Shown piece by piece: positions 4,027-29,992 of a DNA stretch of 35,042 nt. This DNA comes from a virus, in IMG/VR virus record IMGVR_UViG_3300031857_000670, positions 1 through 35,042 of that record; one strand, 5' to 3'. Both the position numbers and the translations under genes were made by a program. A model generated the notes under the pieces. The model was given only the letters and a program-made list of their open reading frames with translations. It was not told where the DNA came from and did not search any database. The first letter of the stretch is position 1, and every line of letters starts with the position of its first letter.

Positions 4027-5720
4027 TCTCTAGCCTCTTGTGCATTCTTTTGCAATTTTAAAATTATTTTTATATCTTCTTTTGAAAGAGTCCCTTTTTT
4101 ATCAGGAGTTGGGGTTCTTTTTAATTCATCCTCAGTAAAAAATGTTCCGTCTGAAGGAGGTGTATAACCAAGAAGTCTCCATCTGGCAGCTAAAGCTTCA
4201 TCCTTCTTTTTAATATTTTCTTGAGATAATTGGCTAGTACCTTCTACCGCCATTTTGTTTGCGTATGCAATTGGATTAAAAGGTTTGCCAGCAGCTATTG
4301 CCTCATTAGAAGCATTAATCAAATCAGCAAGCATAGAGCCATATTTCTCTTGCTGCTTTTTATATTGGTCACCTAATATAAACCCATCAGCTGGTAACTT
4401 TAATTTGCCTTTAAGTATCATTTTTGCATCAGCAAAATCCCTTGATTCTGTTTTAATCTGCTTTATAAAATCAAGAGATTCTTTAAGATTTATTTTTCCA
4501 TTAGCGTAATATTTTTCTATATCCTGTCTACCAAAAACTCCTTTATCAATTTGGTTGCCAACAAAGAATAACGTCTTTGCATCAGTTGGTTTTTCTTCTT
4601 GTGCGTATATTGATTTAAGAAAAGCAGGAGTTGCCTGACCAAGCGCTATTAATGTATTTACTATTTCTTCTTGACCTATTTCGCCTTTGTAATATTTGTT
4701 TAAAGCGTCAATTGAGTCCTCTTTATTTTGACTATCTTTTGCTTTTTGATCTACCTGTAAAGCTTTTTCTTTCTCGCCTTCACGCTTTAAGAATTGAGTC
4801 TTAATTTTTTCTTGTAACTCAGTAGGCAAGGTTGACCATACTGCTTGATACTTTCCTGCATTACCACTTTCAAGAGCAGCAAGTCTTGCTGAAAAACTTG
4901 TGTCTGGCGCAGCCATAGCAAATTCATCAGACGATAAATAATTAGATAATCTGTCTACATATGCTTTTTCAATTTTTGAATCTATAGCTTTTTGAGTAGC
5001 AGTAAATGCAGCAACATTATTTGTTTGTACTGCTTGAGTTAATATTGCTTTTCTGCCAATTTCTATCTGCTCGGAAAGTCTTTTTGGATCTGTTTCCTGA
5101 TCAATTAATGTTCTTAGTAATGGATCATAATCATCTAAAGATCTAGTTACCAAGTCTTCAATATACTTAGCTCTTAACTCGCCAATTTTCTTAGCGCCAG
5201 CCTGATAAACAGGATTAGCTGCTGCGGCAATTGATGCTTGAAAAGCATTTGCTTGCTCTGGATCTAATGATGCAATAACCTTACCGTTACCTTTTTGAAT
5301 TGCATAAAATTCATCATCTAAAGTTTTTATGTCTGTAATTGCACCAGCCTCTACCTGCTGATATATTCTGGCTATATCGCTTCTAGCTGTTAATTCTAGC
5401 GTAGATCTAAGTTGACCAGCCTGTATTTTTCTTGCTGCATCACCAAAGAATGTACCAGCCTTTGGCTGCTCTAGCGCAATATCCAAAGAGCCTAACTTGG
5501 CTCTCTTAATTTGATCATCAGAAACTGGGTTTTTATATGCCCATTGCTCACCTTCTCGTACTGCTTGTTTAGCAGCAGCCTTAAACGCAAACTCGCTCAA
5601 GCGATCAAGAGACTGCGACATCATTTGTGATGATCTCTCTGTCTCACGCAAATCAGCAAAGTCTAACTTTTGTGAAGGCGTGGATAACAATCCCATTTGT
5701 TGGTATGTTGGTAATGGCAT
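4023..5720 (-). CDS. Putative internal virion protein (565 aa, helical)
   Basis: It starts with ATG at 5720, five bases after the end of the 168-aa gene, and its stop overlaps the next start (ATGA). The protein is almost entirely predicted helical and rich in Lys, Glu, Ala and Gln. An N-terminal stretch (SLDRLSEFAFKAAAKQAVRE, then YKNPVSDDQIKRAK) resembles the start of internal virion/core proteins in pelagic and freshwater podoviruses. No enzyme motif is visible. Order in the operon (tail tube B, gp14-like, this, then two very large proteins) mirrors the T7 arrangement gp12, gp14, gp15, gp16, which supports an inner-core role. Confidence 0.75.
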   Translation of the reverse strand: MPLPTYQQMGLLSTPSQKLDFADLRETERSSQMMSQSLDRLSEFAFKAAAKQAVREGEQWAYKNPVSDDQIKRAKLGSLDIALEQPKAGTFFGDAARKIQAGQLRSTLELTARSDIARIYQQVEAGAITDIKTLDDEFYAIQKGNGKVIASLDPEQANAFQASIAAAANPVYQAGAKKIGELRAKYIEDLVTRSLDDYDPLLRTLIDQETDPKRLSEQIEIGRKAILTQAVQTNNVAAFTATQKAIDSKIEKAYVDRLSNYLSSDEFAMAAPDTSFSARLAALESGNAGKYQAVWSTLPTELQEKIKTQFLKREGEKEKALQVDQKAKDSQNKEDSIDALNKYYKGEIGQEEIVNTLIALGQATPAFLKSIYAQEEKPTDAKTLFFVGNQIDKGVFGRQDIEKYYANGKINLKESLDFIKQIKTESRDFADAKMILKGKLKLPADGFILGDQYKKQQEKYGSMLADLINASNEAIAAGKPFNPIAYANKMAVEGTSQLSQENIKKKDEALAARWRLLGYTPPSDGTFFTEDELKRTPTPDKKGTLSKEDIKIILKLQKNAQEARE

Positions 5721-5725
5721 ATTTA

Positions 5726-6232
5726 TTACCGTCTAAATGTGTAAGAAGAGGTATCTGTTGGTGCGCTGCCAACAGTTTGGGTAGCTGCCGGAGCAGCACC
5801 TATCTGACTGTACTGATATCCGCCTGACGCTAATGCTATAGCAGCATTAAAATAACCTTGCTTTTCAGCTTGGTTAGCAGCTGATGCATACATAGCCATT
5901 TGCGCCTGTCCCATTCTTTCAGCTCCAGCAGCACTAGTTAATGCAATATCAAACTCTTTACCAGCTCTACGAGTATTTACATCTTGAATTAAAGCAGCAG
6001 ATCCTTGGAATGATTGAACACCACCAGCAGATCCCCTTGCTCTAGCAGCTGCATTTGTTTCATTTAATCTTTGTAAAACTACATTTGCTTTTTGCTCTTC
6101 TTGTAATGCACGTTGCTGACCTTCAAGATTAGCTTGCGCTCCCTGCAAATGTAATTGTCTACCACGAGCTTGACCAGCTTGAATAGAACTAAATGCTTGT
6201 AATGCAGCCGCAACTAATACTAACTGTGCCAT
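5726..6232 (-). CDS. Internal virion protein A-like (T7 gp14 position)
   Basis: A 168-residue protein starting one base after the tail tube B stop. The first 15 residues are hydrophobic (MAQLVLVAAALQAF), followed by a Gln/Ala/Arg-rich helix and a Gly/Ser-containing segment (ARARGSAGGVQSFQGSAA). This hydrophobic N-terminus plus Ala/Gln helix is typical of the smallest podovirus ejection protein, which in T7 forms a channel in the outer membrane. Similarity is in architecture and position rather than a diagnostic motif. Confidence 0.7.
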   Translation of the reverse strand: MAQLVLVAAALQAFSSIQAGQARGRQLHLQGAQANLEGQQRALQEEQKANVVLQRLNETNAAARARGSAGGVQSFQGSAALIQDVNTRRAGKEFDIALTSAAGAERMGQAQMAMYASAANQAEKQGYFNAAIALASGGYQYSQIGAAPAATQTVGSAPTDTSSYTFRR

Positions 6233-14227: not shown

Positions 14228-14710
14228 TTAAACCCTCGCTAAAATATAAGTATCCGCACCGTCAGGACTATATTTTTTCATTAGTCCTTCGATCTCAAAA
14301 CCAAGGTACTCTGCCCAGCGTAATGCCCTCGGCTCATCGGATCTTACCGTAAGTTGTAGCCTATGCAATGAGAGCGATTGCGCCACGATATCGCTAAATG
14401 ACTTAGCGACTATAGTTAGCTGCTTGGGATAGCGTCTGGCATCGTCAGATATGATTGACCACATCTCAGCCACACCAGTCCACAGCACAATGCAGCCAAA
14501 CATTGCCACAGGTTTACCATGAACTAGCGCAGTGACTGCGAGTCCGAGCCTAGCTTGCATCTCTAGCATGGTATCCATAGAGACAGCCTTCGCAAATGGC
14601 AGCTGATCCTCTGTAATTCTCATGTGATGTAGGTGGCTGGGAACCATTGGTATGTAGCACACCCCAGCCTTTCTAGGTAATCGCTCGTTTAACTCGATTA
14701 TGTTGATCAT
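14228..14710 (-). CDS. GNAT-fold acetyltransferase-like protein (T7 gp13-type neighbourhood)
   Basis: A 160-residue protein. The C-terminal half (LQLTVRSDEPRALRWAEYLG, then FEIEGLMKKYSPDG and ARV) is the typical end of a GNAT fold in which a residue series 'A..W...LGFE.EG..' forms the last strands. Podoviruses often carry such a protein between terminase and portal genes; T7 gp13 is related in fold and needed for assembly. Whether it acetylates anything is not known. ATG 14710 overlaps the terminase stop (ATGA). Confidence 0.75.
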   Translation of the reverse strand: MINIIELNERLPRKAGVCYIPMVPSHLHHMRITEDQLPFAKAVSMDTMLEMQARLGLAVTALVHGKPVAMFGCIVLWTGVAEMWSIISDDARRYPKQLTIVAKSFSDIVAQSLSLHRLQLTVRSDEPRALRWAEYLGFEIEGLMKKYSPDGADTYILARV

Positions 14711-16257
14711 TCAAACGGATCAAAGTCTGAATTAGCAATAGTCTGTACCACTATCGTATTTTGTAGGTGTTGCGGCTTGGTTAATCGCTTATGTTCACCA
14801 CCACCTAGTAGCAAATAACCAAATGCATCACCCACATGGCTATGCTCATTTTTATTTGGCGCATCTCGGAACCGTTCATGCCCTGCGCCCACAGCAATCC
14901 GCTTGAAATGGTAGCCACCAGCCAGAGATTTACGCAATAACTTGCACCGAGTGTTGACCATCAGCCCAGCTTTACCCTGAATCAGCCTTTGCATTGGAGC
15001 AGCTGCTGCCTCTCTACGCACCTTAAAGTCATTCGATGGCGCTGGTTGTGCGCGCAAACCCAAAGTGCGTAGGTAGTCAAAGCTTGTTACCTCGTAAATT
15101 GCATCACGAGCCATACCAGCTGGATCACCCCACAGCAATACTTGGAAGTTTGGGTACTTTGCATTTAATTCTGCAAGCAGTTGCTGACCAAAACGCTCCA
15201 AACCCATGTCTTCAGTGACAATTTCATCAAGAATATTCCACCTACCATTGGCTAAACGCTGACCAATGACAGCTGCTGGAGTCAAACCAAAGTCTAACCC
15301 TACCTGTATAGCCTGTGTTGGATCTACGTCTACCTCACCCGACATCATGGAGTCATCGTATTCCTGCCAGACTGGCTTACCTTCCTGAACATAGGTGTAT
15401 TTACCGCCAGCGTAGCAGCGGATCCAGTCTAGATTTTTACCTAGTAGCATTTGCTGGTAGTAGCCGGACGGTAAATTTTTTATATTCTCAGCTTTAGGGT
15501 TTAACTTCCACCATTTGCCTGATGCAAAAATATGATCGTTCGCCTCTGGATTATCTGGCAGCTGTGCAGGATCAGCCTCGACTACTCCACCCTCTTGCTT
15601 GAAGAACTTCCAAGCAAACTTGCCTGACATCTTTTCTTTTTCTGCTAGTTTAAACCACCAATGATCATCGTCCATCGGATTGGTATCCATCCATATACCG
15701 TGCCAAGTAGCCCCACCATCACGCTGAGTAGGATACCGACCAACCCTGTGAGTAAGACCATCAATAACGGCACGAGGTAATTCTCTTGCTTCATTAACCC
15801 ACGCTCCTGTAAGTTCTAAGGACAGTAGTTTTCTTACGTCCTTTGGTTGATCAAGTGCCAAAAATATGACTTCGCAATCCACACCAGCTGCACCATCTCT
15901 AGCTGGCAGCCTGATGTGATGGGTAATCGGTGGAGTCCAAAGCAGGGAACCAAATGTATTCTCAGGGAATAGATCCAGCCACGTTTTAATCGTAGTGGTC
16001 TTTAGCATTGGGTAGCTGTTACGTACTATCGCCCAGCGTGAGTAACGGATATTGTCTATAGGGCTGGGTTTTTGCTGGATAGCTTTGATAAATATCTTGG
16101 CTGCACAGGCATATGACTTACCGCTGCCGACTGGCCCCATTAAGCCTTGGACGAAATTGTCCGACTGCATGAACTCCCATACCTTTGGCGAGTCCGAAAA
16201 GTCTAGATTGATGCCAATGTCTGGCACTGACTTACCGCTGGATTCCTTAGTCTTCAT
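14707..16257 (-). CDS. Terminase large subunit
   Basis: A 516-residue packaging motor with both expected domains. The ATPase has Walker A GPVGSGKS at residues 41-48, a Walker-B-like segment GAWVNEARE at about 151-159, and MDTNP at 190-194 in the coupling region. The RNase-H-like nuclease has candidate catalytic aspartates D322 (VGLDFGLTPA), D378 (LLWGDPAG) and D477 (HVGDAFGYLL). It cuts and pumps DNA into the prohead at the portal. The start follows the PAPS-reductase-like stop directly (zero-base gap), so the small subunit, the PAPS-like protein and this gene form one translational block. Confidence 0.95.
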   Translation of the reverse strand: MKTKESSGKSVPDIGINLDFSDSPKVWEFMQSDNFVQGLMGPVGSGKSYACAAKIFIKAIQQKPSPIDNIRYSRWAIVRNSYPMLKTTTIKTWLDLFPENTFGSLLWTPPITHHIRLPARDGAAGVDCEVIFLALDQPKDVRKLLSLELTGAWVNEARELPRAVIDGLTHRVGRYPTQRDGGATWHGIWMDTNPMDDDHWWFKLAEKEKMSGKFAWKFFKQEGGVVEADPAQLPDNPEANDHIFASGKWWKLNPKAENIKNLPSGYYQQMLLGKNLDWIRCYAGGKYTYVQEGKPVWQEYDDSMMSGEVDVDPTQAIQVGLDFGLTPAAVIGQRLANGRWNILDEIVTEDMGLERFGQQLLAELNAKYPNFQVLLWGDPAGMARDAIYEVTSFDYLRTLGLRAQPAPSNDFKVRREAAAAPMQRLIQGKAGLMVNTRCKLLRKSLAGGYHFKRIAVGAGHERFRDAPNKNEHSHVGDAFGYLLLGGGEHKRLTKPQHLQNTIVVQTIANSDFDPFE

Positions 16258-17109
16258 TTAATCGCCACAAAAGCAAGCGATTGCTTCCTCATCTTTATCA
16301 AACATATTCATTTGTTCCTTATTAAACTTTATCATTGATGCATATGATGGACGATCAGACCTAAAAACCGCACCACTTTTTTTGTCAACCAATGTTGATA
16401 CCATGTCTTCCATCTCTGCCCACCAGATTGCTCTTGATGGTTTTTCTTGAATAAGGCTTATTATTTGATGACCACCTTTTAAGTAACAAAGATCGCAATT
16501 TCCATGCATGGTTACACCATTCATGTTTGGCAAGCCCAAATCAAAAGAATTATTTCTCCAAAATTCACCTACTATTTGCTTTGTTACACCAGCATCAGCA
16601 AGTGGCATTATTCTGCTAAATCCTTCTTCATCAGGTCTATTTCTAATTTTTACTACCCGCCTTTGTTCGTCAGCACGAATACCAACCATTTGCTGCCAGT
16701 CATCACCTAATGTTTTTAAGTATTGTGCAAATGGTCTTATCTTTAATAATAAAGTGCAAAACCTAGTAACTGGGTTTGGTAAATAACGTCTACTCTTTAT
16801 TGCTGCCGCAAATGGCTCACCATTTCTACTAGCAGTATCAAAATCTACTAGCCGCCATCTTTTTTTTGAATCCTCATTCCATTGATATTCTAGCCAATGA
16901 ATTTTTACGTTCCAGTTGTCTTGGCAGTCCTTAACAAATTGCAAGGTAGCCTCTTCCTCTTTGCCTGTATTAGCAAAACAGACAATAGCTTGATCAGGTA
17001 ATTTCCCATTATTAGATTGCAATACTCGCCAGAGCATATACGCTGAAGTCCTGCCACCAGAAAAACTAATACAGGTAGGTTCATCAATTATGAATGGATC
17101 ACTCTTCAT
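16258..17109 (-). CDS. PAPS-reductase-family PP-loop protein with cysteine cluster
   Basis: A 283-residue protein of the adenine-nucleotide alpha-hydrolase (PAPS reductase/DndC) family. The PP-loop SFSGGRTSAYM is at residues 15-25, and FANTGKEEE follows at 45-53. Cysteines C118 (VTRFCTLLLK), C205 and C208 (GNCDLC) and the C-terminal C279/C281 (ACFCGD) could bind an iron-sulphur cluster as in sulphur-transfer relatives. Genuine PAPS reduction is only one option; tRNA or DNA sulphuration-type chemistry, or nucleotide-dependent activation, are others. It lies between the two terminase genes and overlaps the small subunit by 11 bases. It is AT-richer than the large terminase gene, suggesting later insertion. 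Confidence 0.85.
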   Translation of the reverse strand: MKSDPFIIDEPTCISFSGGRTSAYMLWRVLQSNNGKLPDQAIVCFANTGKEEEATLQFVKDCQDNWNVKIHWLEYQWNEDSKKRWRLVDFDTASRNGEPFAAAIKSRRYLPNPVTRFCTLLLKIRPFAQYLKTLGDDWQQMVGIRADEQRRVVKIRNRPDEEGFSRIMPLADAGVTKQIVGEFWRNNSFDLGLPNMNGVTMHGNCDLCYLKGGHQIISLIQEKPSRAIWWAEMEDMVSTLVDKKSGAVFRSDRPSYASMIKFNKEQMNMFDKDEEAIACFCGD

Positions 17110-17542
17110 CGTTTACATCAATCACTGTTGGAGCCTTAATATTAATGCCAATCACGGATGGTTTATCGCCATTGTCACCACCGTCTAGCAGACCAGAGGC
17201 TTTAGCCAGCAGTCGCAATACCTGCACCTTGTCATGCAACTCGATCTCGATATAGGAATTACCTTCTCGATCTGTGCGACTGGTTAGCTTTTTGATGGCA
17301 TGAAGAGCGTGTTCGGGAATGTCTTTGCTGGCTTTGACCATGACATTACCAGAGGAATCCCATTCCATAATATCTGATAGCTTGGTATTAGCCATTGATA
17401 GTAGTGCATATGCGACTGCCTCCCGATTAGCCTCCAGAGTGCCGGATCTCTCCAGCCTTTTCTGGATGAGGCGCACACCACCATAGTTCTTCAATGGTGG
17501 TATCTGGTTTGGAAACTTCTCTTTTTCTTTCTTAGTTGCCAA
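17099..17542 (-). CDS. Terminase small subunit
   Basis: A 147-residue protein just upstream of the packaging genes. The middle part (TKLSDIMEWDSSGNVMVKAS, then IPEHALHAIKKLT and ELHDKVQVLRLLAKASGLLD) is typical of Terminase_2-type small subunits, which recognise the packaging site. The start is TTG at 17542: no ATG occurs early enough, and AGAGGT lies at good spacing before it. It overlaps the preceding gene by 11 bases. The N-terminus is Lys-rich. Confidence 0.82.
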   Translation of the reverse strand: MATKKEKEKFPNQIPPLKNYGGVRLIQKRLERSGTLEANREAVAYALLSMANTKLSDIMEWDSSGNVMVKASKDIPEHALHAIKKLTSRTDREGNSYIEIELHDKVQVLRLLAKASGLLDGGDNGDKPSVIGINIKAPTVIDVNDEE

Positions 17543-27060: not shown

Positions 27061-27663
27061 TTACTTGAATGCTGGCCCACCTACCCATAAAACCAAAGAG
27101 CGCCTAATACCTTTTGTTACTGGTGCAACTCTATGCAAAGTATATGATGGGAAGAACCATGCTCGACCTTGCTTTGTTTCCAATGTCTGCGCCTCATCAT
27201 TATTAGTCTTCACCTGAAACTCACCGCCTTCAAACTCAGAAGTATCTGACAGCAACATAGACATTGATAATTTTCTAGGCACGTTGCCATCATTAATGGA
27301 TGCGTCAGTGTGCCAGTTGTAATGACCTTTCTGTGTATCCGTATAAACACCCAACTGCATTGGCTCGTGAAAGCCAGTCAAATCAAAATGAAAAAAACTA
27401 CGGTTAACTTCTGCTACTGCATTTGCTAATTTATCCCATACTGGGCGCAATTCATCTTTCATACCAAGCCAGCATATCTGCGATGCCCTCACATCTTTAT
27501 TAACTTGACCACCTTCATCAGCTCCACCTATACACCCATCAGATAAACTTAACCACTCTGGCTGGCTAAGAATTAAATTAATATCTTCCTTACTTAAAAA
27601 GTTTTCCCAAAACGCAAGGCTGTCTTTGCCGTTAAAATTTCTTGGTGGGATTGGATAAATCAT
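27061..27663 (-). CDS. 2-oxoglutarate/Fe(II) oxygenase, PKHD/prolyl-hydroxylase type
   Basis: A 200-residue enzyme with the double-stranded beta-helix core. Iron ligands are H118 and D120 (NWHTDASIN) and H177 (YTLHRVAPVTKG); R187 or R188 (GIRRSLVLW) should hold 2-oxoglutarate. The segments SMLLSDTSEFEGGEFQV and GRAWFFPSY are typical of PiuC/PHD-type hydroxylases. It uses O2 and 2-oxoglutarate to hydroxylate a substrate that cannot be read from sequence. It is the last gene of the accessory block; its ATG overlaps the previous stop (ATGA). Confidence 0.9.
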   Translation of the reverse strand: MIYPIPPRNFNGKDSLAFWENFLSKEDINLILSQPEWLSLSDGCIGGADEGGQVNKDVRASQICWLGMKDELRPVWDKLANAVAEVNRSFFHFDLTGFHEPMQLGVYTDTQKGHYNWHTDASINDGNVPRKLSMSMLLSDTSEFEGGEFQVKTNNDEAQTLETKQGRAWFFPSYTLHRVAPVTKGIRRSLVLWVGGPAFK

Positions 27664-28148: not shown

Positions 28149-28732
28149 TTATTCCCCATTAACTCTGTTCTATTTTTTATGTAAGAAAACACATCACGAA
28201 TTGTGGAGTCCCCAGCTTCAGAAGCATAATTTCCATTCTTACGCACATAATGTAAAAACACTTGCCCCGAATAATAACCATTAGGCCCTTCACATTTATC
28301 TCGCCAATGCTCTATGTCGCAACCCTTATAAATAATTCCATCGCCTTCAGCCATATCAAACCGCATACCGCCCATATAAATAGGCCAAGCATAATGATGC
28401 GATCTTCCAAGTTGTATAGTCACACTAACCTCACAAGCATTTCTGTCAGTGTGTTTTTCTAAAACATCACCGTTACTATAAAGCCTTGCATACGCATAAG
28501 TTGGTATTAATTCTTCACCTACTATGCTCTCTATTACATGCCAATACAATTCGTGCAGCGTCTCAAACATATATTCGTGGTCAAGAATAGATTTAGCGTT
28601 TGGTATTTGCTCGTCTCCACGAGGATTTAAATCTGCTTGACGCATTAATACATGCGTAAAAAACTTATAAAAATCTGGTGGCATTAATTTTGTTACATGC
28701 AACGCACCATGTTTTTCTAACAACTCATTCAT
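28145..28732 (-). CDS. 2-oxoglutarate/Fe(II) oxygenase-like protein (cyanophage-like type)
   Basis: A 195-residue protein. Likely ligands are H94 and D96 (LEKHTDRNACEVSVTIQLG) and H142 (KGCDIEHWRDKCEG); the strand SGQVFLHYV after it closes the core. This 'GDGIIYKGC.IEHWR....G...QVFLHYV' pattern is one I know from phage and marine-virus oxygenases of unknown substrate. The usual Arg anchor is not obvious after the distal His. It overlaps its neighbours by four bases on each side. Confidence 0.82.
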   Translation of the reverse strand: MNELLEKHGALHVTKLMPPDFYKFFTHVLMRQADLNPRGDEQIPNAKSILDHEYMFETLHELYWHVIESIVGEELIPTYAYARLYSNGDVLEKHTDRNACEVSVTIQLGRSHHYAWPIYMGGMRFDMAEGDGIIYKGCDIEHWRDKCEGPNGYYSGQVFLHYVRKNGNYASEAGDSTIRDVFSYIKNRTELMGNK

Positions 28733-29451
28733 TTTTGTACCAGTTTAATAAATTCATAACTTAAACACCACCCACCATCCTTTATATCCGATGGGCGCTC
28801 ATGGTGTTTAACATGGTTCCAGTCTGCCCAAGGAAACAGCAATATAAAAAACGGCACGTTTACAGGTTTATTACCAATATGGGTAAATATTTGATGGCAA
28901 GATACTGCTAAATAAAAATATGCCACTGGCAACATGTACCCAAAAACAAACAATTTATAATCTATTAAATATAATGCAACACTAAATAAAACACATAACA
29001 ACCCACCATAAATATGCAATAGTTTATGCACTGGATCTTTTAATAACGTCATTACATTTTTACTAGGTTTAACAATAACACTATTGTATTTCTTAAATAT
29101 AAAAAACCATAAACTTCTTACATGCGGGTCTTCTTCAGTGTCAGAAGTATTGTGATGTATGTAATGCAAATGCACCCAAGATATTGAACTTCCTTGAAAT
29201 GCTAATGTTCCACATACTGCAAACAAGTATTCCCAAAATTTGCTACACGAGTAAGACCTATGCGTAAGCAACTGATGAAACCCAGCAGTTACAGATATAT
29301 TAAATACAGAATACACAATGAATGACAAACCTATCCACCATAACGAATCCCCACTGGATAGCATATATATTCCATGCACTGAAAACAACAATGCAAAAAT
29401 ATTTATAACAGTTTGCCAGTTAGTCGTTATAACAAATAAATTTTTATTCAT
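28729..29451 (-). CDS. Membrane fatty-acid desaturase
   Basis: A 240-residue integral membrane protein (ATG 29451; an in-frame GTG one codon earlier is less likely). It has the three His boxes of acyl-lipid/acyl-CoA desaturases: HQLLTH (59-64), HYIHH (96-100) and HVKHH (213-217, in WNHVKHHERPSD). Hydrophobic segments at about 15-32, 37-56, 72-88, 144-175 and 178-205 flank them. DPH after box two is typical as well. It would introduce a double bond into fatty acyl chains using O2, diiron and host electron donors, or act as a related hydroxylase. It lies in the middle of the oxygenase series. Confidence 0.9.
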   Translation of the reverse strand: MNKNLFVITTNWQTVINIFALLFSVHGIYMLSSGDSLWWIGLSFIVYSVFNISVTAGFHQLLTHRSYSCSKFWEYLFAVCGTLAFQGSSISWVHLHYIHHNTSDTEEDPHVRSLWFFIFKKYNSVIVKPSKNVMTLLKDPVHKLLHIYGGLLCVLFSVALYLIDYKLFVFGYMLPVAYFYLAVSCHQIFTHIGNKPVNVPFFILLFPWADWNHVKHHERPSDIKDGGWCLSYEFIKLVQK

Positions 29452-29992
29452 CACAAAAATGTTTAACTACTTCTTCGTATGGGGTAGACACAAAAGAAAT
29501 AGTGACAGCCTTTCTAATATGAGGTGGAGATAACAAAACAGCGTGTGGTTTTGATACATTTATTAACCAACACTCACCATCACTCGCAATAAAACTTGAT
29601 AACTCTTCCACCTTCCCAGCTTTGTACTCATAATAAATAGTACGTTCCGCATGGGTATTAATATAAATGTTTAAACAGCACTTTCTGCCTATATCAACAT
29701 GTGGCGCTAACATTGTAGTTTTGTTATTGCTTGACGGTGTTACCGTTAATAACTTAACGGTTGGATTTTCTATCGCAAGCAAACCACTAGGCAATTGTTC
29801 ATACACTATTTCTTTAATACGCTCTTCAACTTTATACAATATATTAGGCACAGATATAAAGTCTTGTTTCTTTTTTAATGCTAATCCATATTTCTGTGGA
29901 GTTTTATATTCCTCTATAACGTCAGACGAATTTAAAGTAAATAAAATTTTATCTAACTCAAAACGCTTATTAGTTTTTAAAAATAAGTCCAT
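29444..29992 (-). CDS. Divergent 2-oxoglutarate/Fe(II) oxygenase-like protein
   Basis: A 182-residue protein. Candidate ligands are H98 and D100 (LAPHVDIGRKCCLNIYI), distal H150 (VSKPHAVLLSPPH) and R160 (HIRKAVTISFV). The spacing of H-x-D, distal His and Arg fits the double-stranded beta-helix family, and the start (EEYKTPQKYGLALKKK) reads like the helical N-terminal part of such enzymes. Similarity to known families is weaker than for its neighbours. It overlaps the desaturase by eight bases and the upstream gene by 23. Confidence 0.7.
   Translation of the reverse strand: MDLFLKTNKRFELDKILFTLNSSDVIEEYKTPQKYGLALKKKQDFISVPNILYKVEERIKEIVYEQLPSGLLAIENPTVKLLTVTPSSNNKTTMLAPHVDIGRKCCLNIYINTHAERTIYYEYKAGKVEELSSFIASDGECWLINVSKPHAVLLSPPHIRKAVTISFVSTPYEEVVKHFCDE

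Follow-up and report, generated by a model that had tools for sequence, protein, structure and literature searches.

A NinC-family PP-loop protein, nearest in sequence to SspD among the families compared, is encoded by an optional cargo gene between the terminase genes of a phage

SspD is the PP-loop subunit that transfers sulfur in SspABCD, the system for phosphorothioation of single-stranded DNA, and DndC belongs to the phosphorothioation of double-stranded DNA. In bacteria, SspD is reported to form a complex with the desulfurase SspA (PMC7188994), and DndC is described as having a three-cysteine 4Fe-4S centre together with a separate pair of cysteines that probably accepts sulfur (PMC10853773). 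In phage lambda, ninC is nonessential, and lambda without the nin genes has full plaque-forming ability, according to PMC10695390. Phage cysH genes are counted in viromes as sulfur metabolism, and phage PAPS-reductase genes are taken in this sense in PMC9301287 and PMC9144972. Evidence from sequences of the NinC family points to a PP-loop enzyme of the DNA-phosphorothioation type. This hint of SspD was already known from two papers: one on a Thermus phage describes a PAPS-reductase gene as an insert with a lambda relative, draws a connection to phosphorothioation and calls for more study (PMC11437467), and one on prophages gives PADLOC matches to SspD with E values of 1e-11 to 1e-15 and asks for their verification (PMC12429752). 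The Thermus phage, Tsatsa, resembles the phage analysed here in that comparison with a close phage shows a PAPS-reductase-like gene to be an insert (PMC11437467), but phage and site are different, and the likeness is one of description, not of sequence. A literature search on the function of phage NinC and PAPS-reductase proteins found no experimental assignment in the accessible parts of its sources. As far as this search shows, what is new below is the layout of the cysteines, the placement by tree, and the finding of a clean insertion and of mosaic alleles.

The window, by which we mean the whole stretch of DNA analysed, is the entire 35,042-base virus record IMGVR_UViG_3300031857_000670, with 45 ORFs. 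As read from the sequence, the gene under study (Table 1) starts with ATG, and the plus strand over the same positions is crowded with stop codons. An earlier note on this DNA had placed the gene between the terminase subunits, and this is indeed where it lies: terS is upstream, its last 11 bases being also the first 11 of the gene, and terL, downstream, begins at the first base past the stop codon. The product was said to be PAPS-reductase-like and matches Pfam PAPS_reduct (PF01507) with 28.8 bits, above the cut-off of 22.5. The SGG of its PP-loop (residues 17-19, part of SGGRTS) and the cysteines that the note had listed, C118, C205/C208 and C279/C281, are all present at those residues; further cysteines stand at 13, 44 and 62. 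Other ORFs of the window match head-tail connector and capsid proteins, an O-like replication protein, a serine recombinase (PF00239, 21238-21885, plus strand) and a Sak annealing protein (PF06378, 23568-24398, plus strand), the last two being matches among the 45 ORFs that were placed by reading the sequences. The window also encodes a 2OG-Fe(II) oxygenase at 27061-27663 on the minus strand (PF13640, 58 bits). At 28729-29454, on the same strand, there is a histidine-containing membrane protein that by eye is like a fatty-acid desaturase (GFHQLLTHRSYSC); no Pfam match at an E value of 0.001 was found for this product.

Table 1. Features of the locus, in coordinates of the window
Feature	Position	Strand	Detail or basis
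PAPS-reductase-like PP-loop protein, NinC/PHROG_424 family, SspD-like	16258..17109	-	283 aa; Pfam, PHROG, tree, hhalign
Terminase small subunit (terS)	17099..17542	-	Sub-threshold Terminase_2, 24.2 bits vs cut-off 26.1
Terminase large subunit (terL)	14707..16257	-	Terminase_3 above cut-off
PP-loop SGGRTS, residues 17-22; Thr in place of the Asp of SGGxDS	17044..17061	-	Alignment
Cys118 in RFCT, candidate Fe-S ligand	16756..16758	-	169/169 sequences
Cys205-x-x-Cys208 in GNCDLC, candidate Fe-S ligands	16486..16497	-	169/169 sequences
C-terminal Cys279-x-Cys281 pair, candidate persulfide acceptor	16267..16275	-	168/169 each
ATGAAGACT at terL start	16249..16257	-	Near-copy ATGAAGAGT at window gene start, 17101-17109
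Exchangeable middle, about residues 76-255	16345..16884	-	4-fold-site identity vs L003, L012

By sequence comparison, the protein belongs to the large phage family PHROG_424/NinC, lambda NinC included. It matches phrog_424 over residues 3-281 with an E value of 6.5e-49, and a tblastn search with it found 203 phage records, every one at less than 60% identity; lambda NinC and Salmonella phage Chi are among them, as are Riemerella and Vibrio phages. Lambda NinC (Orf290) is in the same clade and has the SGGRTS, the single cysteine, the CxxC and the C-terminal cysteine pair, although identity is 27% and its gene lies in the nin region. The C-terminal pair is CxC in the window protein but CxxxC in NinC and Chi, and in NinC an extra tail follows it. 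A comparison of 17 sequences, of which NinC is one, shows 23 invariant columns, which include G18, G19, S22, C118, K123, G143, R145, D147, N204, C205, C208 and K211. The sequence set of the family (A2) consisted of the window protein and 104 others from a non-redundant set of 107, from which L212, L331 and L002, the last being identical to the window, were left out.

We then compared 169 family sequences, comprising the window and 168 of 172 related loci, with near-duplicates included and four broken or odd-length reads dropped. Conservation of the five cysteines is so nearly complete (Table 1) that the set is not due to chance. In two alignments, C118 falls on the cysteine of RWCT in SspD and DndC and on the second cysteine of the CC motif of CysH, while C205/C208 fall on the CxxC of SspD, DndC and APS-type CysH. 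The cysteines on the CC and CxxC columns of APS-type CysH thus stand at the cluster positions of [4Fe-4S] PP-loop sulfurtransferases. By analogy, C118, C205 and C208 are candidate ligands of a [4Fe-4S] cluster, and the C279/C281 pair is a candidate acceptor of sulfur. The window protein shares the cysteine set and IRADE with SspD, but the Asp of SGGxDS is Thr in 162 of the 169 sequences, Ser in 6 and a gap in 1. With this Asp missing in nearly all members, the family may have changed or given up the classic chemistry of ATP pyrophosphatases, and the change from Asp to Thr is the chief reason for caution in assuming that chemistry in its simple form.

A maximum-likelihood tree of 54 rows combined the phage-type family with SspD, DndC, CysH, CysD and what we take to be IbrA-like references, all from whole genomes. 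The phage-type family forms one clade, with support of 97/92, and CysH a separate one (97/96). A branch with support of 94/86, below the star of the tool, holds SspD together with the phage family and leaves DndC, CysD, CysH and the IbrA-like set on the opposite side. Three ungrouped rows have long branches, about whose placement the tool warns, and row RAP44 follows the annotated start and so has no PP-loop. Comparison of profiles by hhalign, with unequal depths of 6 reference sequences for SspD, 4 for DndC and 7 for CysH, gave for SspD a probability of 99 and an E value of 4.6e-18 over 190 columns, with C118 and the CxxC paired. The corresponding values were 87.8 and 3.3e-6 for DndC, and 36 and 3.8e-4 for CysH, the weakest of the three. 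The PADLOC model for SspD was matched by 105 of 105 members, the models for DndC by 23 and 17, and that for BrxP by 23. Among the controls, two CysH proteins matched BrxP best, and their SspD match was absent in one and had an E value of 0.006 in the other; CysD matched BrxP only. By tree, profiles and cysteine layout, then, SspD is the nearest of the families tested at the level of sequence. The earlier note had named grouping with assimilatory CysH as part of the outcome that would count against its proposal, and the family is found on the side of SspD instead.

An assimilatory (P)APS reductase that boosts the sulfate assimilation of the host is what many records annotate, and the fold described below is closest to APS/PAPS reductases (Z 13.9), with C118 and the CxxC on the CC and CxxC columns of APS-type CysH. 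Nevertheless, CysH has a modified loop of its own, ECGLH and RRxQS, and a search of the window protein for the CysH-type loop, ECG[LI]H and RRxQS found none of them. Besides the separate clade and the weakest of the three profile matches, no sulfate-assimilation family was seen among 25 of the 41 Pfam families matched by neighbouring genes. Assimilatory CysH was rejected on tree, motifs and profiles, and we hold this reading to be very improbable.

SspD and the window protein have in common the PP-loop fold family, a length of about 280 aa and the order of motifs: SGG..S, DTGKE/NTGKE, LPxPxTRxCTxxLK, IRADE, CxxC and a C-terminal cysteine pair. Genuine SspD has one cysteine in RWCT, a CxxC and another CxxC at the very end, compared with RFCT, NCxxC and a C-terminal pair in the phage family; SGGKDS and the C-terminal CxxC of SspD are SGGRTS and CxC in the window protein. 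Against the PADLOC model, the window protein scores 62.7 bits and covers only profile positions 4-192 of 277. A search of 145 genomes yielded seven genuine SspD proteins, which match the entire profile with 362-465 bits; apart from these, the highest scores on the model are 58 bits in the same 145 genomes and 70 bits in 14 genomes with phage-type relatives. We also looked for partners in 16 gene-bearing virus records, namely the window and 15 viral contigs picked mainly for length. Neither SspC (PDLC02781, PDLC02780) nor a cysteine desulfurase (Aminotran_5) was found in any of the 16, some of which may be fragments; in the SspD-bearing control genome G009 both were found, with SspC adjoining SspD. 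Matches to the PADLOC models for Ssp and Dnd were likewise absent among the other 44 ORFs of the window. With SspC and desulfurase not found in the records searched, the phage cannot be an Ssp system alone. A genuine SspD was rejected on the score and on the lack of SspC in the 16 records, and the Asp-to-Thr change in the PP-loop is a further difference.

DndC shares the PP-loop, the RWCT and the CxxC with the window protein but has about 550 aa, a C-terminal end without the cysteine pair and a weaker match. Genuine DndC was rejected: its model TIGR03183 (cut-off 290.4 bits) is not among the five NCBIfam matches of the window protein up to an E value of 1, genuine DndC proteins score 530-661 bits on it, and DndC does not appear among the PADLOC matches up to an E value of 1. 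Isoelectric points were uninformative (6.83 for the window protein, 5.39-7.0 for SspD). A protein that is SspD-like and has its PP-loop Asp replaced might be a decoy or inhibitor, one that mimics SspD or DndC and poisons a phosphorothioation-based defence of the host without catalysis. That the gene's middle has been replaced more than once, as described below, would fit an arms race, and PMC12345140 reports a phage protein acting as an antagonist of DndBCDE-FGH. However, a pure decoy would not need the candidate catalytic cysteines, which are kept in 168-169 of 169 sequences, and we regard a decoy as improbable.

The AlphaFold2 model of the window protein has a mean pLDDT of 93.1 and a pTM of 0.89; the last ~13-20 residues, with the cysteine pair, are low, in blocks of 61 and 50. 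Among the matches listed, the nearest folds are APS/PAPS reductases at Z 13.9-13.0, and VIA-align puts APS reductase 2goy (Z 13.9, rmsd 3.6, 180 aligned) before PAPS reductase 1sur (Z 13.6). The [4Fe-4S] sulfurtransferases LarE (Z 12.1) and NcsA (Z 11.8) are also matched by fold, as is TilS (Z about 11), and Foldseek gives TtuA with an E value of 2e-4. Structures of SspD or DndC were not among the fold matches listed, which is no evidence either way. When the PDB was searched by sequence, no useful match emerged: the top profile hit was a prenyl synthase (E 0.073), and 2goy had an E value of 1.6. Matching both the reductases and LarE, NcsA and TilS, the predicted fold fits sulfur chemistry and leaves the substrate unchosen.

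The model's resemblance to NcsA, TtuA and TilS suits a role in thiolation of tRNA or other RNA, as carried out by three-cysteine [4Fe-4S] PP-loop thiolases, by which translation would be protected or retuned during infection. Single-subunit [4Fe-4S] enzymes of this fold do act on tRNA, and such an enzyme would need only the desulfurase of the host, which fits the absence of partners in the records searched. Yet kinship in sequence is to SspD and, more weakly, to DndC, neighbouring genes are of DNA-processing types, and Pfam finds no RNA-binding domain in the window protein; RNA thiolation is in our judgement unlikely, if still a serious candidate.

The position of the gene had led the earlier note to suggest a link between modification and packaging. 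We examined the terS-terL junction in the best 80 loci from each of a TerL and a TerS search, a sample from which frequencies are not population estimates. Among the matches listed, 145 loci with both genes gave 114 distinct junctions, with one odd case left out. In 40 of these, terS and terL are together, 69 have other inserts, not every one of which need hold a gene, and 5 have a window-type gene. The closest relatives, with TerS and TerL at about 95% or more, include 13 distinct contigs (a hand count, with 10 distinct junctions) in which terS and terL overlap and the gene is absent, and 3 contigs besides the window in which it is present, again among the matches listed. The empty site has a single ATGAAGACTAAG, at the start of terL. 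In the filled site, ATGAAGAGTGATCC stands where the window gene starts and, one ORF on, ATGAAGACTAAG where terL starts; the insertion is therefore exactly one ORF between like start sites. In cousins, the slot holds DUF6378, DUF3310, a metallophosphoesterase or a GT8 glycosyltransferase, and SprT-like and GNAT proteins match below threshold. Relatives of the window gene lie elsewhere in other phages; examples are lambda, where the place is the nin region, as well as Chi, C72C1 and a Rhizobium phage.

Functional coupling to the terminase, for example by marking DNA for packaging, could be argued from the 11-base overlap with terS and the direct abutment on terL, which imply co-expression. But the 13 near-identical contigs without the gene, among the matches listed, keep terS and terL in place, cousins have other genes in the slot, and relatives of the gene sit elsewhere. 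These results make such coupling most improbable; a packaging role was rejected on the empty sites and other occupants. With sites that are empty or occupied by unrelated genes, the window gene is an optional cargo gene, a moron, of a phage of ~35 kb. The interpretation in the earlier note is supported in part, by the separation from CysH and the SspD-like cysteine set, and is unsupported as to packaging. As separate observations, the terS-terL slot in L024-L173 is a hotspot of varied cargo, with metallophosphoesterase and SprT-like genes on the opposite strand within inserts of ~2.3-3.5 kb. In L002, a contig otherwise nearly identical to the window, terS (5627-6008) is matched in two tblastn pieces, suggesting a frameshift or a sequencing error.

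The gene itself differs much more than its surroundings between lineage-mates. Compared with L003 and L012, TerS has 100 and 98.6% identity and TerL 98.5 and 96.5%, whereas the product of the window gene has only 64 and 53%. DNA identity is at the level of the flank for the first ~150 bases or slightly beyond, falls to 35-70% over the middle part and rises again near the end. At 4-fold sites, identity to L003 and L012 is 71% and 79% in residues 1-50, 42% and 33% in residues 76-255, and 74% and 73% in terL; the last 28 residues contain few such sites, of which 4 of 4 and 2 of 2 are identical. Alleles of other lineages (L004-L011, L038, L125) reach just 20-47% at the 4-fold sites of residues 1-50, so the shared ends of the gene reflect descent. 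In a second lineage, L011 and L260 have flanks with 95.3% and 94.2% DNA identity and a protein identity of 64%, which is 88-89% in residues 1-50, 51-72% in about residues 51-250 and 87% at the end. As judged from these alignments, the middle has been swapped, with ends and flanks conserved, in the two lineage-mates and independently in the L011/L260 pair. Copies in bacterial genomes diverge along with their flanks (for example L183/L186: flanks 93.8 and 97.0%, protein 97.5%). Such swaps suggest that the encoded activity exists in variants whose exchange is of benefit. A neutral reading is possible as well: donors from other contexts would share only the window-type gene, and crossovers must then fall in its conserved ends.

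We also considered what lies next to the gene in other genomes. In viral contigs, 123 of 149 adjacent ORFs were used (24 on the opposite strand and 2 from duplicate phages left out), and the proteins that they encode, for which 25 of 41 matched Pfam families were considered, are most commonly RusA (14), with AAA_25 (7), Toprim (6), NinB (2) and NinG (1). For a wider range, 182 loci had a match, of which 21 were dropped where the ORF picker had lost the gene and 161 were used, repeats included (L002, L016 and L114 are one contig); one representative of each neighbour cluster was scanned. Among the loci listed, a C5-cytosine methylase lies within five genes at 29 of 161 (14 of 99 viral, 15 of 62 bacterial), and a ParB-N6/N4 methylase cluster at 11 of 161. 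Near the bacterial loci listed, DUF3275 occurs at 13 of 62 and DUF3577 at 12 of 62; we take both to be genes of integrative elements.

These data suggest an optional phage sulfurtransferase of the NinC/PHROG_424 family, akin to SspD, that would act on nucleic acid, probably DNA, with sulfur supplied by the host. As a whole, we propose this tentatively, as somewhat short of an even bet. Sulfurtransferase chemistry is in itself likely; given that chemistry, a nucleic-acid target is about equally likely, and, given such a target, DNA is rather to be expected than RNA. In the mechanism that we infer, a host cysteine desulfurase of the IscS type would load sulfur onto Cys279/Cys281, and Cys118, Cys205 and Cys208 would be the ligands of a [4Fe-4S] cluster in which one site stays open. 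The PP-loop would bind ATP and activate the target, and sulfur would be inserted into nucleic acid. The likeliest target is the DNA of the phage itself, which could then escape nucleases or restriction of the host. The variable middle of the gene may set the target or evade a host sensor.

In favour of this proposal are the place in the tree on the SspD side, the hhalign and PADLOC matches to SspD, the SspD-like cysteines, a fold near APS/PAPS reductases, LarE and NcsA, the DNA genes and cytosine methylases nearby, the insertion and mosaicism, and the precedent of the bacterial SspD-SspA complex. Against it, the top structure matches are APS/PAPS reductases and not nucleic-acid enzymes, DNA-type neighbours may merely reflect insertion into early regions, lambda plaques fully without its nin genes, SspC and desulfurase were not found in the 16 records, and nearly all members have lost the Asp of SGGxDS. 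A stronger version, which we consider doubtful, is that phages have in NinC-type proteins enzymes that sulfurate nucleic acid on their own and require only a host desulfurase. Sulfur would enter the backbone or bases of phage DNA, and swaps of the middle of the gene would alter the target, much as with the target domain of a methyltransferase, and so outpace restriction. If true, stand-alone sulfuration would give lambda NinC its function. For lambda ninC, the C-terminal cysteine pair and the three invariant cysteines make a concrete, testable prediction.

Two further observations concern copies of the gene in bacteria and its fusions. The bacterial copies L179-L258 are often near DUF3275 or DUF3577 and diverge with their flanks, unlike the copies in the phage slot. 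Of the long upstream extensions that might be fusions, most resemble start calls placed too far upstream. In Thalassospira (L377, 1120-2694, minus strand; L239, 13-1587, plus strand), a Bro-N domain (25.5 bits, cut-off 25.6) is fused to a family member, and this fusion may be real.
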